Origin: a virus
Virus record (IMG/VR): IMGVR_UViG_3300028800_000047
Location: 1 to 37,720 of that record
Reading direction: 5' to 3' (one strand)
DNA length: 37,720 nucleotides
Part shown: in pieces, positions 3,095 to 18,453 of the stretch
Numbering within the stretch: position 1 is the first letter of the stretch
How the letters are laid out: every line of letters starts with the position of its first letter
Translations under genes and position numbers: made by a program
Notes under the pieces: generated by a model
The model's database searches: none
Seen by the model: only the letters and a program-made list of their open reading frames with translations
What the model was told of the DNA's origin: nothing

Positions 3095-5218
3095 TCATCC
3101 TCTATCTGATCCTACATGTTTAGGATTATGGGTTAATAACTTAATCATATTTTGGGCATGACTTATTTGAAGGTCAGCTCCTACGCGTTCACTTTCAGCT
3201 TGATAACGAAGGATTGTTTCTTGAAGTTCAGCAGCAGCAATTTCCTTCTCAACTTCAAACTTTTCCCATTCCATTGTCATATCTTGCTGTGTTTCTAACG
3301 CCTTACGTTGAATCTCAGCTTGTTTTAGCTCAAGGTCTTTCATTTTTGCTTGGAAATCCAATTGTGCTTGTTGCTCTTTCTGTTGTAACGCCTGTTGTTG
3401 TAATTGGATCTTCATCATTTCAGGATTGGGTTGATCAGGTTTGGGCGGTAATGGTTTCCCTGTCTTGCCTGCCTCAATGATCTCTGGTGATACTAGCGTC
3501 CTCAATCGATTGCGTAATTCTAGGTTATTATCTAAAGGTAGATTCTCAACATAGAGATCAGCAATCATGGGGAATACGGTGCCTGATTTATCCGCATTCA
3601 ATACTAATTGCATGGATTGAAGGGCTTCTGTCTTCTGTCCCTCATAGCTCAATCCAGGTTTAAGGCGTATTTTAAATCGCCCATTGGTCATATCATTTTC
3701 CATCATCATGCCATAATCATCAGAGGGTTTATTGATCTCAACCTTTTGTTCGGCCGATTCGGGCATTGGAAGCACTAATGTGCGCTGAGTATCGTAAATA
3801 TAAGGGATCATTTCATTGATGATTTCTCCACCCGTAGCAATGGCAATATCCAATGAATTACGAGGAACTTGAGTGTTTTTATATCCCGCTCGCTTCCTAC
3901 CCTCAATCGCCTCACCTGATATTTCATTCCCCATATCACCCATTTGCGCGTTATACATCCCTGTACCTGTTTGAATGTCCATAAGGGTTCGATCATATTG
4001 TGCCATTAAAGATTGAGATAATTCCGGTGGCCGTAGTTGTTCAGGTTTAGCACCCGATGGAGTTTCGTCATAATACAATGCACCATTCACAACAGAGGGA
4101 TCACGCCATTGTTGTTGAGCATCAGGAGTTGCCGCACATTTACGAGGCATGATAAATTGATCCCATCGGGATATTTTCATCATATAAGCTGATTGAGTAG
4201 CGAGATAATTTAGATATTTCTGCGCGTCCTTTACATCTTTAAAGAAGGATCGCGTAATTTGTTGACCCTGTTTAGTATAATAACTCTTTTGATCAACAAA
4301 AATGATAGGCAGTTGTTTACTGACGAAATCAGTTTCTTCCAATATAAAATCCCCGGCTATTTGCCTATGCTTGATCTTATATCTAACTCGTTCACGTTTT
4401 TGAATGACGGTAACGGGTTCATCATTGAGAATGATATATTTCTTAGCACTAACAATTCTTTTCTCTAACTTTCTAAGTCTCTCTTCATCAACCACGGTAC
4501 GTTTCATGTCTGATAGTTGATAAATGTTAATTCGTTTACCTTCTCGCTCATAATCATCAACTGTCGTAATGGAATCATCATCAGCAAAAGCGACCGTACT
4601 ATCTTCTGTGATTGCCGTTGTCCCTATCTGACTTTCGATGTCTTTACCCCATCTATCCCTGAACCATTGGCGAGATACACGGGTTTTAAATCCTGCCGCC
4701 ATTCCATCTACTTTACATTTATGACGAGCTGATACATCCCAATAAGCATGGTTAGGATCGCTAAAATCGTAAATTAATATTTCTTGTTCGAATGAATCCT
4801 CATGTAAATAATCCGTTCCAACCCGATAAGCCCCATAGCCGCCCACGATAGAATGACCATAAACCGTTTGATAAACTGTTTTAGCATCTGAATTAAGGGA
4901 AATATTACGGACTAGTGAGGCTCTAACCTGGGCATCTTGAACAGGTACATCTTCATCAGGAAGAATCTGGAGATTAGGCGTATTTTGTATTTGATCACCC
5001 TGTAGATGATTCATCAATACACCCAATTTATTCATCATCAAGGGTATTTTATTATATCGCTCGAATAACTTAGACTCGTCTTCTCGCCACTGATCGCCCA
5101 TGACGAAATCGATCCATTCATAATAAAGAGAACGGTTAATCGTCCAGTATTTTTCCCACTTATCAACGCGATCACGTATTTTACGACAAAGTTCAGGGTC
5201 TTTCCTTGGCATTGGCAT
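3095..5218 (-). CDS. Portal protein, P22 gp1-like
   Basis: The product is 707 aa (P22 portal is 725). Recognisable portal stretches are YYEWIDFVMGDQW near residue 29, GVLMNHLQGDQIQNTP near 66, and GGYGAYRVGTDY near 132 followed by DFSDPNHAYWD. The last 120 residues are a long Gln/Glu-rich helix (KIQLQQQALQQKEQQAQLDF), matching the C-terminal barrel or crown region of P22-type portals. It forms the dodecameric DNA gate at one capsid vertex and is the docking site for terminase and tail factors. The start has GGAATAACAAG upstream. It sits between terminase and scaffold as in P22. Confidence 0.93.
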   Translation of the reverse strand: MPMPRKDPELCRKIRDRVDKWEKYWTINRSLYYEWIDFVMGDQWREDESKLFERYNKIPLMMNKLGVLMNHLQGDQIQNTPNLQILPDEDVPVQDAQVRASLVRNISLNSDAKTVYQTVYGHSIVGGYGAYRVGTDYLHEDSFEQEILIYDFSDPNHAYWDVSARHKCKVDGMAAGFKTRVSRQWFRDRWGKDIESQIGTTAITEDSTVAFADDDSITTVDDYEREGKRINIYQLSDMKRTVVDEERLRKLEKRIVSAKKYIILNDEPVTVIQKRERVRYKIKHRQIAGDFILEETDFVSKQLPIIFVDQKSYYTKQGQQITRSFFKDVKDAQKYLNYLATQSAYMMKISRWDQFIMPRKCAATPDAQQQWRDPSVVNGALYYDETPSGAKPEQLRPPELSQSLMAQYDRTLMDIQTGTGMYNAQMGDMGNEISGEAIEGRKRAGYKNTQVPRNSLDIAIATGGEIINEMIPYIYDTQRTLVLPMPESAEQKVEINKPSDDYGMMMENDMTNGRFKIRLKPGLSYEGQKTEALQSMQLVLNADKSGTVFPMIADLYVENLPLDNNLELRNRLRTLVSPEIIEAGKTGKPLPPKPDQPNPEMMKIQLQQQALQQKEQQAQLDFQAKMKDLELKQAEIQRKALETQQDMTMEWEKFEVEKEIAAAELQETILRYQAESERVGADLQISHAQNMIKLLTHNPKHVGSDRG

Positions 5219-5290: not shown

Positions 5291-5575
5291 TTATTCCCAT
5301 AAAAATCCATCTCCACCACATGCTGGACATTTATTTCCTTGTCCCATATCACAAATAGGAGAAATATATACAGTCCCATATCCCTTACATCTTGAACATA
5401 TTTCTTTTGATTTTAATGGAATTTTCCACATAGTAAGCAAACAACCTAAATTTACCCCTATTACTTCTACTTGTTCGTTTAAATATTTTAATTCATCCCG
5501 CAAATTCATTACTTGTTTTTTAATGGATTCATAATCGCATTGAATTCCTTTTATCATTATCTCGTCACGTATCAT
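5291..5575 (-). CDS. Small DnaJ-type zinc protein
   Basis: The 94-aa product has a short helical N-terminal half (about 10-50) and a C-terminal CSRCKGYGTVYI...CPACGGDGFLWE pair. These two CxxCxGxG motifs resemble the DnaJ cysteine-rich repeat. The start ATG overlaps the stop of the large terminase gene (ATGA), so it is probably translated with it. The architecture, coiled region then zinc pair then terminal Trp-Glu or similar, parallels the 242-aa protein at 89-817. Role unknown; chaperone-like help in assembly is possible but not shown. Confidence 0.8.
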   Translation of the reverse strand: MIRDEIMIKGIQCDYESIKKQVMNLRDELKYLNEQVEVIGVNLGCLLTMWKIPLKSKEICSRCKGYGTVYISPICDMGQGNKCPACGGDGFLWE

Positions 5576-7893
5576 CGAAACATCTTCCTTTCAAATGGTG
5601 ACAGTTGTGGGACTTCAATTTGAGCTGATTGACTACCATAATATCCACCAAAGAACGTCAGCATTAATGCATCTGCACCATCAGGGGATGGCAATCCACG
5701 TGATCTCAGTTCATCTTTCGATTCAATCTGTATCTGTCCACTAGAGTTTTCTTTAAATCCTAGACAACATAATTCACCATGTAATTCGTCACTATCAGGT
5801 ATTTGTACGGGCATCTCACCATAGAACCAATCGCGCATATCTGACCATAATTCAGCCCTGAGATTCTTGAATCGTTCCTTATCATTAGCTGATCGAGCAA
5901 CATTAACGCCTTCTACACAATCAAAACCCATTTCTTGCAGCCTATCCACAACACCCGCACCGACGCCAATACAATCGATATACATTTTAGTTGGCTTTTC
6001 TTGCTGTATGATTCGTTTTAAACGACCAACAATCTCCATAGTATTATAATTGCTAAAACGTTCGAGATTAAAAGCATGACGACCTTTACGACGTATAATT
6101 GCGGTACGATCACGGTCACTAATAGCAACGTCAACCCCAATAACAAGAGCGCCATTTGGCTCAACATCAGCCTTCCTAGCTCTTTCAACATATTTACTAT
6201 TGATGAAAACATTATTGATTGGATTTTTAAACGCTTCGGTCGCAGAAAATGGATATTCGACACTAAAAAACTCCTTACCGGCATCATAATCTTTACTAAA
6301 TTCCCTTATTTTTATTCTTCTCCAAGCCAAATGCTCTTTCGTGAGTCCATTTGACTGGTATAAATACATATAATGCTGTTCTTCTTCTGTTAAACTCAAA
6401 TTCTCTGCATTATATGTGTATTCTTCTTGCCAATACCACGGCAAAAAAATGGCTTGATACTCGCTATCAGCATCCATGGCATTTAACCAACGGGAATGAA
6501 AGTAATTTCCAATCCCATTAGCTGTGCTTTCCAATAACACTTCCGTGCCTTTTTCATTACTGATAGCCTGCAATATCCCTTTCGAATGATCCTCAGCAAA
6601 TTGCCAGAATGCAACCTCCGAAGAGTGCATTAACTGGATTGTCTGAGAACGACCCACCGACTTATTGCCCGCCGTTCCTACAGCATATCCCGAATCGAAG
6701 TCCTTAAAATAGAGTTCTTTTGCATTCGCTGTGTCAGCCTTTGGTGCTAAACCCTGTTCTAAGTTCTCATAGAACCTGACAGCCATACTAAATAAATTCT
6801 TCGTGGCCTCCTTGTCGTGAGTCAATATAAACGCTTTCTTACCACGTGAAGTAATGACTTGATGAAAGAATCGAGCTTGAATATAGGTGGAATTATGAGA
6901 TACAAGACCTTCACAAATGAATGTTTTTGTACTTGTTTGAAGATCTATAACCTTTATTTTTCCTATGTATTTTATAGAAGTTACTTTAGCCCATGGTTTA
7001 ATACCGTCTTGCGCTGCTTTACCAGGTAACTCATGGCCAATATGCCATTCATCACTGGTAAATCTGGTTGGCCGACATCTTGAAAATAATTCCATAATAT
7101 AAGGAAGCCTATGGATGTCTAATCGATGAACAGGCTTATCTCCTAATTTACTAGAATCACCAAACTTTCTATAATCAATGACTTCTTTGTAAGGCATATT
7201 AATACGATGAAAATAAGCTTTCATCCTATCTAAAACTTTACCAGCTACCTGATGAACGCTTATTCTTTTAGCGCCTGTTAATCTTGCACTACCTTCACCA
7301 TCAATAATTCCAGCCATCCATCCATCTTCATAAGTTTCACATTCATAATCAGGAGGATTCATGGCTATTCTGACAGAATCACCAATAATAAATTGAGACA
7401 CTAGACGCCACTCTTGATTATCACCGCCTCTTTTTCTACATAGCATTCGATGGTCATCAGTAACTTCTAATCTTGCCCCATTATCAAATAGTACTTCGTA
7501 AGCATCTTTTATGAATTCTTTTTTATCTTCTACAATTGCAGTGCGAAACTTTCTTGATTGTTTTCTGCCTATTTCTGTAAAGCCAGGTGATTCTTCATCA
7601 CAAGCAACTAATTTATCACCAATTTCAACATCTTTTATTTTAATCCATCTATAATCTGAACTTAGTACCTTCATTTGTTCAGAAAAGCAACACCCTTGCT
7701 GCCTTCCTTTCAAAATGACAGCTCTAACTTTTCCCGTTGCAGTCCTTTGGTCTTCTAATCGTTGATGTAAATAGATTTGAGCGCGATTAAATTTGAACTT
7801 TTCGGGAGTTCCTGATTTAGTGCGTATTTGAAGAAAAGTAGGCGCAAACCTTTTAAAGTCGCGCAGTGTTTCTAATTGTTCGTTTGTGACCAT
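5572..7893 (-). CDS. terL: Large terminase subunit with in-frame intein
   Basis: The packaging motor ATPase and headful nuclease. The 773-aa precursor contains a 266-aa intein (residues 69-334); the joined exteins are 507 aa, close to P22 gp2 (499). After splicing the phosphate-binding loop reads GRQQGC/STYIQ. Further motifs are HSSEVAFW (about 423-430, Walker B region), ESTANG (455-460, ATPase coupling), and nuclease acids in GVDVA (Asp588), MYIDC (Asp640) and SPDGADAL (Asp738, Asp741). A 20-codon frame ends in TAATG at the start codon. The ATPase cannot be active until the intein is removed, because the insertion splits the ATP-binding loop. Confidence 0.95.
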   Translation of the reverse strand: MVTNEQLETLRDFKRFAPTFLQIRTKSGTPEKFKFNRAQIYLHQRLEDQRTATGKVRAVILKGRQQGCCFSEQMKVLSSDYRWIKIKDVEIGDKLVACDEESPGFTEIGRKQSRKFRTAIVEDKKEFIKDAYEVLFDNGARLEVTDDHRMLCRKRGGDNQEWRLVSQFIIGDSVRIAMNPPDYECETYEDGWMAGIIDGEGSARLTGAKRISVHQVAGKVLDRMKAYFHRINMPYKEVIDYRKFGDSSKLGDKPVHRLDIHRLPYIMELFSRCRPTRFTSDEWHIGHELPGKAAQDGIKPWAKVTSIKYIGKIKVIDLQTSTKTFICEGLVSHNSTYIQARFFHQVITSRGKKAFILTHDKEATKNLFSMAVRFYENLEQGLAPKADTANAKELYFKDFDSGYAVGTAGNKSVGRSQTIQLMHSSEVAFWQFAEDHSKGILQAISNEKGTEVLLESTANGIGNYFHSRWLNAMDADSEYQAIFLPWYWQEEYTYNAENLSLTEEEQHYMYLYQSNGLTKEHLAWRRIKIREFSKDYDAGKEFFSVEYPFSATEAFKNPINNVFINSKYVERARKADVEPNGALVIGVDVAISDRDRTAIIRRKGRHAFNLERFSNYNTMEIVGRLKRIIQQEKPTKMYIDCIGVGAGVVDRLQEMGFDCVEGVNVARSANDKERFKNLRAELWSDMRDWFYGEMPVQIPDSDELHGELCCLGFKENSSGQIQIESKDELRSRGLPSPDGADALMLTFFGGYYGSQSAQIEVPQLSPFERKMFR
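6892..7689 (-). mobile_element. Intein with LAGLIDADG motif inside terL
   Basis: A 266-residue insertion splits the Walker A loop of the terminase. It starts with Cys69 (CFSEQMKVLSS), has block B-like TDDH at 146-149, and ends in a block F/G-like VIDLQTSTKTFICEGLVSHN. The final His-Asn is followed by Ser335 as the +1 nucleophile. These are the residues needed for protein splicing. An internal WMAGIIDGEGS (about 192-202) is a single LAGLIDADG endonuclease motif, so it may still home. No second motif is obvious, so it is either a one-motif enzyme or partly decayed. Confidence 0.93.
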
Positions 7894-12143: not shown

Positions 12144-12395
12144 GAGTTTCTCCTATGCGCACGAGCTTATCAGTACACATATAAATATATTATTATATAA
12201 ATTATATACTTATATATATTTTAGGGTGGGTACTAGCGAGTACCCACTTAGTACCCTAGTACCCTCTTTAAGAGGCAAAAGGGTACTAGAGGGTACTAGG
12301 TTAGTACCCACCCCAAACAATAATAAAAACAACGACTTATATGTATATATTCCCCCGAGGGTACTCTTATGTATTTACAGAGGGTACGTGGGTAC
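12136..12395. repeat. Array of GGGTAC/GTACCC elements (candidate origin or operator)
   Basis: GGGTAC reads on the plus strand at 12136, 12228, 12281, 12291, 12359, 12382 and 12390. GTACCC reads at 12240, 12251, 12259 and 12304. That is eleven copies in 260 bases, most with an extended form near RGGGTACTA. Several pair as inverted repeats, for example GGGTGGGTACTA (12225-12236) with its complement ending at 12312. No protein is encoded here. It separates the RepA-like ATPase gene from the 62-aa gene and abuts an AT-only tract. Candidate iteron-type origin or operator cluster. Confidence 0.75.
12176..12222. other. AT-rich tract beside GGGTAC array
   Basis: About 47 bases consist almost only of A and T (TATATT/TATAAT runs) between the 62-aa gene leader and the GGGTAC array. 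Such a tract next to iterons is the usual layout of a DNA-unwinding element at an origin. It also contains TATAAT on the minus strand (12206 to 12201), so it could instead be the promoter of the downstream small genes. Confidence 0.5.
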
Positions 12396-12403
12396 TGAAC
12401 AAA

Positions 12404-17876: not shown

Positions 17877-17881
17877 TTTTA

Positions 17882-18228
17882 TGGGCGACGATACTTACAA
17901 TTTGATAGAGTCGACATTCCGCGGAATGAGATAGGTGCGAATCCTAGTAGGGAAAATAGCCCACCAATTTATGGGGCATGAGTTTGTAGCACAATGAATA
18001 TAGGTCATCGTTTATATTCTTTATGCCCCGCCAGTTTTATGGAACAAGCAGCTTGGACAGTGACAAGCAACCAGACGTGTACTAGTGAGTATGGTAAAAT
18101 AGAGCCTTTAGGGGAAATAGATGGGCTAAGCCCTCCTACTATAGAAGATAATACGAGAGAATAGGCATAGAAACTCGTAACTCAGTCTTTAAAATACTAG
18201 TAATCCGTGCAATTCGGATCTTGTTCCA
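17882..18228 (+). ncRNA. Candidate structured RNA with three tRNA-like units
   Basis: The 370 bases 17877-18246 hold no good gene but fold in tandem. Unit 1 opens TGGGC (17882) and closes GCCCACCA; it has a D-arm-like ACTT/GAGT pair, the palindrome CATTCCGCGGAATG and a T-arm-like TAGG-TGCGAAT-CCTA. Unit 2 pairs GGGGCAT (17973-17979) with ATGCCCC (18023-18029), then GCCA, around a GAATATA/TATATTC stem. Unit 3 pairs TGGAACAAG (18040-18048) with CTTGTTCCA (18220-18228). Inside unit 3 are GCTTG/CAAGC, TACTAGT (18080)/ACTAGTA (18196-18202) and ATCCG-TGCAATT-CGGAT abutting the closing strand. No unit is a normal tRNA. A 56-codon frame (17994-18164) without an RBS is the alternative. Confidence 0.4.
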
Positions 18229-18246
18229 ATTTATTAAGGATAAAAA

Positions 18247-18453
18247 ATGAAATTAGAAGTAAGTGGTCTACCATTTTTATTATTCATCATATTTCTAGTA
18301 TTAAAACTCTGTAATGTTATTACATGGTCATGGTGGTGGGTATGCGCGCCATTATGGATTCCATTCGCTATGATTCTAGTAATGATACCTATAGTCATCA
18401 TTTATGTTTTATGGAAAAAGATAGTAAGGAGATACTCATGCGCTGCAAGTTAA
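18247..18453 (+). CDS. Small two-span membrane protein
   Basis: The 68-aa product has two hydrophobic spans, about residues 8-26 (LPFLLFIIFLVLKLCNVIT) and 37-56 (WIPFAMILVMIPIVIIYVLW). They are joined by WSWWWVCAPL, and a basic tail follows (KKIVRRY). The WSWWWV.APLWIP stretch is typical of small phage inner-membrane proteins often labelled transmembrane Fragile-X-F-like. Function unknown; superinfection or membrane effects are possible. AAGGA lies upstream. It is the first gene after the structured RNA candidate. Confidence 0.8.
   Translation: MKLEVSGLPFLLFIIFLVLKLCNVITWSWWWVCAPLWIPFAMILVMIPIVIIYVLWKKIVRRYSCAAS

Follow-up and report, generated by a model that had tools for sequence, protein, structure and literature searches.

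What does a bacterial virus encode in a 370-nt gap within its early operon, downstream of genes for Sak4, SSB and a DUF3310 protein? The window, by which we mean the whole stretch of DNA analyzed, is a 37,720-base IMG/VR virus record with a P22-type portal protein that is only about 26% identical to those of named phages such as Vibrio phage VvAW1. A sequence-only reading of the window had proposed that the gap holds three adjacent RNA units, each closed by a stem running from TGG to CCA, and that these are either a phage-encoded tRNA mimic or a decayed tRNA array. The closing stems of units 1-3 are all present, with that of unit 1 formed by TGGGC (17882-17886) and GCCCA (17959-17963), and several structured RNAs are encoded in tandem in the gap (Table 1).

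The folding energy of the whole gap is unremarkable (z = -1.4, with 10 of 100 shuffles equally good). ARAGORN finds nothing in the window region and an Rfam scan of that region gives no match at gathering score or at E ≤ 10. A coding frame at 17994-18164 was also considered and rejected, as it runs from unit 2 into unit 3 and the centers of family members are unrelated; a conserved 56-codon frame combined with stems that do not covary is excluded for units 1 and 3. Just downstream of the gap, 84 bases (18280-18363) inside a small transmembrane-protein gene match Campylobacter phage DA10 at 76%, which is the sole nucleotide match of the 13-21 kb region among annotated phages.

Table 1. Positions of the RNA units and their parts in the window
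Feature	Position	Strand	Description
Unit 1	17883..17966	+	Member of a CCA-ended family, GGNC-GACGAUACU...GGGAAAAUA-GNCC-A-CCA
Linker ATTTAT, units 1/2	17967..17972	+	AU-rich; CCA-(N)TTTA linkers are recurrent beside units in relatives
Unit 2	17973..18033	+	61 nt; 7-bp stem, G and encoded CCA; class uncertain
Linker GTTTTA, units 2/3	18034..18039	+	Sequence
Unit 3	18040..18228	+	189 nt; tRNA-scaffolded RNA with hypervariable center; at least 101 members and covariation
Unit 3 acceptor 5' strand TGGAACAAG	18040..18048	+	U-1 plus 8 bp; partner 18220-18228
Unit 3 D-arm	18051..18068	+	Stem GCTTG/CAAGC, loop GACAGTGA (18056-18063)
Unit 3 variable center	18069..18202	+	Replaces the anticodon arm; TACTAGT/ACTAGTA closing, proposed pseudoknot
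Unit 3 T-arm	18203..18219	+	Stem ATCCG/CGGAT, loop TGCAATT (18208-18214)
Unit 3 acceptor 3' strand CTTGTTCCA	18220..18228	+	Conserved pairing with the 5' strand in relatives

Collection of relatives

A search with the portal protein gave 28 related contigs, mostly 50-76% identical. Comparison of the gap region by BLASTN with 20 records reached through relatives returned chance-level matches only; BLASTN is blind to the relatives because the stems change completely, and structure descriptors were therefore needed. The descriptor used, an acceptor and an abutting T-arm plus a D-arm, matches the window once, at unit 3, exposing a D-arm (GCTTG-GACAGTGA-CAAGC) that the earlier reading had overlooked. 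It gives 18 matches in 833 kb of phage loci compared with 7 in 2.5 Mb of Markov controls, and the units that it finds in relatives have identical loops on wholly different stems.

IMG/VR was scanned with a pattern containing the loops GACAGTGA and TGCAATT. The scores of the matches are bimodal, with at least 43 distinct good members (≥16/19) and 73 chance matches (≤12) among the matches listed. Scanning again with only the D-arm yielded 93 stretches, and among 84,980 cellular genomes there were 8 matches, four of them real. The unit-3 family comprises at least 101 distinct members at 97 loci, nearly all on uncultivated-virus contigs. The search patterns themselves account for part of the loop invariance; the stem covariation, the A preceding the T-stem and the closure of the acceptor are independent of them.

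Annotated phages (50,697 records) contain no convincing match to the sequences tried: BLASTN gave nothing for the window region or for member arrays, and a short D-arm query and a linker query gave weak partial matches of the chance type only. At 20 related loci no Rfam 15 family reaches gathering score for the units, and when ARAGORN and Rfam are applied to 20 relatives true tRNAs alone score while unit-3 members do not. Both the unit 1 family and the unit 3 family are absent from Rfam 15. No account of either RNA turned up in a search of open-licence literature; one may exist elsewhere.

Structure of unit 3

Unit 3 has an acceptor of 8-9 bp, a D-arm of 5 bp whose loop is GACAGUGA and a T-arm, likewise of 5 bp, whose loop is UGCAAUU, the T-arm directly abutting the closing strand of the acceptor in the fashion of a tRNA. 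Covariation was analyzed in 63 members with different acceptors, with the center removed. Standard pairs make up 98.6% of the 1,134 pair cells, and the covariation score is 0.788, compared with 0.180 for shuffled and 0.074-0.113 for slid controls. The covariation across relatives for which the sequence-only reading had proposed a check is present: 17 of the 18 pairs are changed on both sides. In the acceptor 97.2% of 504 cells are paired, with double changes at all 8 pairs; the D-arm is 99.7% paired with double changes at all 5 pairs, and the T-arm is 99.7% paired with double changes at four of five, G53-C61 being invariant. Some members had been collected through stem filters, and for this reason an unbiased closure test was run, in which matches to the D-arm alone were joined to the first TGCAATT arm downstream and the acceptor was not consulted. 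In 65 of 70 cases no fewer than 7 of the 8 acceptor pairs formed, with 45 different acceptors represented, compared with 13.6% closure for swapped partners.

The T-loop U-G-C-R-A-U-U departs from the consensus of tRNA only at position 55. It shares U54 and A58, both invariant, as well as C56 and R57 with tRNA; the search pattern partly imposed TGCAATT but not the stem pairs. An A precedes the T-stem in 100 of the 101 members (18202 in the window). D-loops with A-G pair off with the T-loop UGCAAUU and D-loops with G-G (CACGGTGA, GATTGGCGA) with the T-loop UUCGANU, the latter in the same arrays and in few cases. This joint change may represent both sides of the 18-55 contact, as would be expected if the two loops touch. 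At the acceptor, the junction of U-1 with G1 and the C72-A end would suit tRNA-type processing. CCA is encoded at the tRNA position in only 13 of the 101 members (about 3 expected), and in the remainder it would therefore need to be added.

Taken together, unit 3 keeps the acceptor-T coaxial helix and the predicted D-loop/T-loop elbow of a tRNA. The proposed tRNA mimicry is supported for unit 3, with its acceptor, D/T elbow and G53-C61, and fails for unit 1, which does not have a tRNA-like fold. The same division applies to the T-arm-like hairpins that had been described in both: that of unit 3 is conserved and abuts the acceptor, while that of unit 1 is shared only by one close relative, L188, and does not abut the closing stem. 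In the contigs L252 (+ 7283), L247 and L271 there are unit-3-like elements in which the T-loop itself is enlarged (e.g. TGACGACAGCCAAAGAATT), as if cargo were insertable there.

The hypervariable center

The sequence between the D-arm and the T-arm is both hypervariable and exchangeable, and sits where the anticodon arm of a tRNA belongs. Its length is 40 to >150 nt in most members, and the 101 members fall into 91 center clusters. The acceptor TGGCAATCG bears thirteen different centers and the acceptor TGACAATCG ten; one center (L112, L115, L147, L152) is found on four different acceptors, and two types of center are conserved across several contigs. Inspection of 43 centers revealed no common anticodon stem flanking the insert.

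Clear H-type pseudoknots occur in some centers (L089/L251, L159 and the L112 group), and 23% of members beat their shuffles at p ≤ 0.05 compared with the 5% expected. The pseudoknot proposed for unit 3 of the window has no support beyond chance and, as the excess over all cores is only modest, none is claimed for this member.

On contig L063 a reading frame for an HNH endonuclease lies inside a unit-3 center (approximately 16,130-15,690, minus strand). The layout is TGGCAATCG-C-GGCGTG-GACAGTGA, then ATG..., ending CATTACTAG before CGATTGCCA-CCA. This frame suggests that the unit-3 center is an insertion site for mobile genes.

Unit 1, unit 2 and other CCA-ended units

The closing stem of unit 1 pairs GGGC (17883-17886) with GCCC (17959-17962) and is followed by a discriminator-like A (17963) and CCA (17964-17966). 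Its 5' strand GGGCGACGATACT and 3' strand GGGAAAATAGCCCACCA match a second family of 28 members, defined by the conserved strands GACGATACT and GGGAAAATA. The third closing pair flips between C-G and G-C (window, L188, L288, L073), and UUAT lies upstream of 21 of the 28 members. The CCA is part of the unit-1 search pattern, so its frequency in this family is not independent evidence. Unit 1 lies directly or almost directly before unit 3 in the window, L087, L092, L132, L144, L221, L296 and L301, and L132 repeats the order of the window, namely unit 1, a GGGGCA unit and unit 3. Unit 1 is a member of a separate CCA-ended family and has no tRNA fold.

The stem of unit 2 pairs GGGGCAT (17973-17979) with ATGCCCC (18023-18029), followed by G and by CCA at 18031-18033. 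A homologue in L063 (16224-16168, minus strand) has the canonical T-loop TTCGAGT, and unit 2 alone may possibly be a reduced tRNA. Downstream of unit-3 members in L112 and L152 there are units of the form TGGCTYTCGATGYC...GATGTAGARAGCCACCA, in which the closing stem differs compensatorily between the two contigs; these are a possible third CCA-ended class.

The claim that the gap encodes structured RNA is upheld for unit 3 by covariation among 63 of at least 101 members, and for unit 1 by a family of 28 members with a closing pair that switches. A decayed tRNA array is not supported for either unit: compensatory changes keep the stems in about 100 members, and conservation of the loops is in a form other than the tRNA consensus; the stems are under purifying selection, and decay is therefore excluded. 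The units are neither tRNAs, tmRNA, coding nor decayed, with the class of unit 2 uncertain.

Genomic context

In the arrays of relatives the units are separated by UUUA linkers and true tRNAs are sometimes included. On the same strand, ten unit-3 members have a true tRNA within 150 nt, where about 1.4 would be expected, and on the opposite strand none has. Members are found at varied genome positions (after SSB, beside the portal gene or inside tRNA clusters), and their neighbors are mostly early or accessory genes, among them SSB/DUF669, RecT, DUF3310 and Tad2-like anti-defence genes. The flanking proteins include no recurrent partner gene or downstream family; 3 of 150 are Tad2-like (Thoeris anti-defence), and a single one of the 150 is CsrA-like. 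An unrelated phage contig, L010, carries two tRNA-like elements (4210-4338 and 6590-6722) with normal D- and T-arms and a long insert in the anticodon arm.

Two further features of the window lie outside the array. Positions 12215-12396, next to the genes for helicase and primase, hold a gap with a cluster of inverted and direct GGGTACTA/TAGTACCC repeats, iteron-like and with arms of up to 22 nt, a possible replication origin. At 5572-7893 (minus strand) a 773-aa protein resembles Hint/intein domains weakly, with scores that fall short of the Pfam cut-offs. Its alignment with L053 and L054 covers the full 774 aa, and with other relatives only about 453 aa. This conserved protein of the packaging region, possibly the large terminase, probably contains an intein.

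Proposed function and rival explanations

The mechanism that we propose begins with the operon transcript, which would be cut at the AU-rich linkers. Host tRNA-maturation enzymes (RNase P, RNase Z or exonucleases, and the CCA-adding enzyme) would then trim the units, and the products would be stable, end-protected RNAs acting in trans, in effect a natural tRNA scaffold with the variable core as its working part. The core would most likely bind or decoy a host factor that itself changes fast, such as a defence nuclease or other RNA-binding protein, and such a target would account for the free change of cores on a constant scaffold. Display of variable RNA ligands, probably serving as decoys or inhibitors when host and phage are in conflict, is the simplest account of this combination. 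We lean slightly towards the general form of this reading, in which the units are tRNA-framed trans-acting RNAs, matured like tRNAs, whose core acts on a host target. The more specific form, a constant tRNA-mimic frame stabilized by host tRNA processing that displays swappable cores against defence proteins and is arrayed with a second CCA-ended family, is plausible, although our confidence in it falls somewhat below even. We infer the counter-defence role from the hypervariability of the cores and from weak neighborhood hints, the Tad2-like proteins being a count without a background rate.

The strongest rival, which we nevertheless regard as unlikely, is that the units act in cis as tRNA-like punctuation, cutting and stabilizing the polycistronic early mRNA, with cores that are neutral filler. 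Their location between operon genes, on the coding strand and with AU-rich linkers, is as this would predict, and filler would account for the absence of core conservation. Set against it, the cores are often elaborate, with the excess of pseudoknots described above, two types of center are kept across several contigs, and members are not confined to one genome position. Divergent or interrupted tRNA genes, with an intron-like insert in the anticodon loop or in decay, would fit the members that adjoin true tRNAs, the elements of L010, in which canonical loops accompany an anticodon-arm insert, and the HNH endonuclease gene within the L063 unit. This reading is distinctly improbable: no anticodon stem is shared around the inserts of the 43 centers inspected, the loops GACAGUGA and UGCAAUU are conserved but do not match the consensus for tRNA, neither ARAGORN nor the tRNA model of Rfam picks up the units although both detect neighboring tRNAs, and purifying selection on the stems excludes decay.

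A tRNA-like end joined to a large insert, with pseudoknots in some members, would also suit a tmRNA-like or aminoacylated tRNA mimic acting on EF-Tu, the ribosome or an aminoacyl-tRNA synthetase. We consider this improbable, as the acceptor varies at every pair, with G-U in only 1 of 63 members at the G3-U70 position, and there is no tag frame. The acceptor has no fixed identity pair and a charging role is therefore unlikely; its 8+5 bp helix with the T-arm resembles that of tRNA-Sec, unlike elongator tRNAs. Riboswitches are commonly built as three-way junctions in which the loops are conserved and the P1 stem varies freely, and the units could be cis-acting aptamers with loop-loop docking. 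That explanation seems very improbable given the tandem arrays with unit 1 and true tRNAs, the lack of a recurrent downstream gene family and, by inspection, of any recurring terminator or partner that sequesters the ribosome-binding site.

The trans-acting, tRNA-framed reading thus remains the one that we prefer, and the unit-3 family is probably a new kind of phage RNA whose function is predicted only. Virus contigs contain two structured RNA families that had gone unannotated, about 130 examples in all. Cores that block defence proteins, or other proteins of the host, would be ready-made RNA inhibitors with a clear route to their targets; if the units are processing elements, they would represent tRNA-style punctuation of bacterial-virus messages. 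Either reading accounts for gaps in the early operons of phages where tRNA finders detect nothing.

Comparison with known systems

The tmRNA layout noted in the sequence-only reading is an apt analogy, in that tmRNA (RF00023) also has a tRNA-like acceptor and T-arm domain and a large structured insert replacing the anticodon arm. The likeness ends there: ARAGORN and Rfam give no tmRNA match, unit 3 has neither a tag frame nor a conserved alanine identity pair, and it has a real 5-bp D-stem and a hypervariable insert. Riboswitch hallmarks, a recurrent downstream gene and an expression platform, were not found.

Unit 3 is also close to tRNA, especially bacterial tRNA-Sec, whose acceptor-T helix is 8+5 bp, in its acceptor, D- and T-arms and elbow, its A73-like end, the sometimes encoded CCA and the occurrence in gene arrays. 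Its T-arm is that of a tRNA (RF00005), with 5 bp, a 7-nt loop, G53-C61 and direct abutment on the acceptor. It differs from tRNA in having no anticodon stem-loop, the centers containing no stem shared among members, in T-loop G55 and D-loop A18, and in an acceptor of unconstrained sequence, and neither the tRNA covariance model nor ARAGORN scores it. The tRNA-like structures of plant RNA viruses (TYMV type) are likewise viral RNAs that imitate a tRNA end, but they form the 3' end of genomic RNA, whereas the units are internal genes of DNA phages, arranged in arrays and without synthetase identity elements. GOLLD and ROOL are structured noncoding phage RNAs that are sometimes found near tRNA genes; these are large with conserved bodies, while the units are 85-390 nt with a variable body. 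We know of no counterpart to a constant tRNA-like frame with an exchangeable core. We rate the combination of a constant tRNA-mimic frame, exchangeable cores and a companion CCA-ended family as a categorically new architecture, and on a more conservative view it could be a new variant among tRNA-like RNAs.
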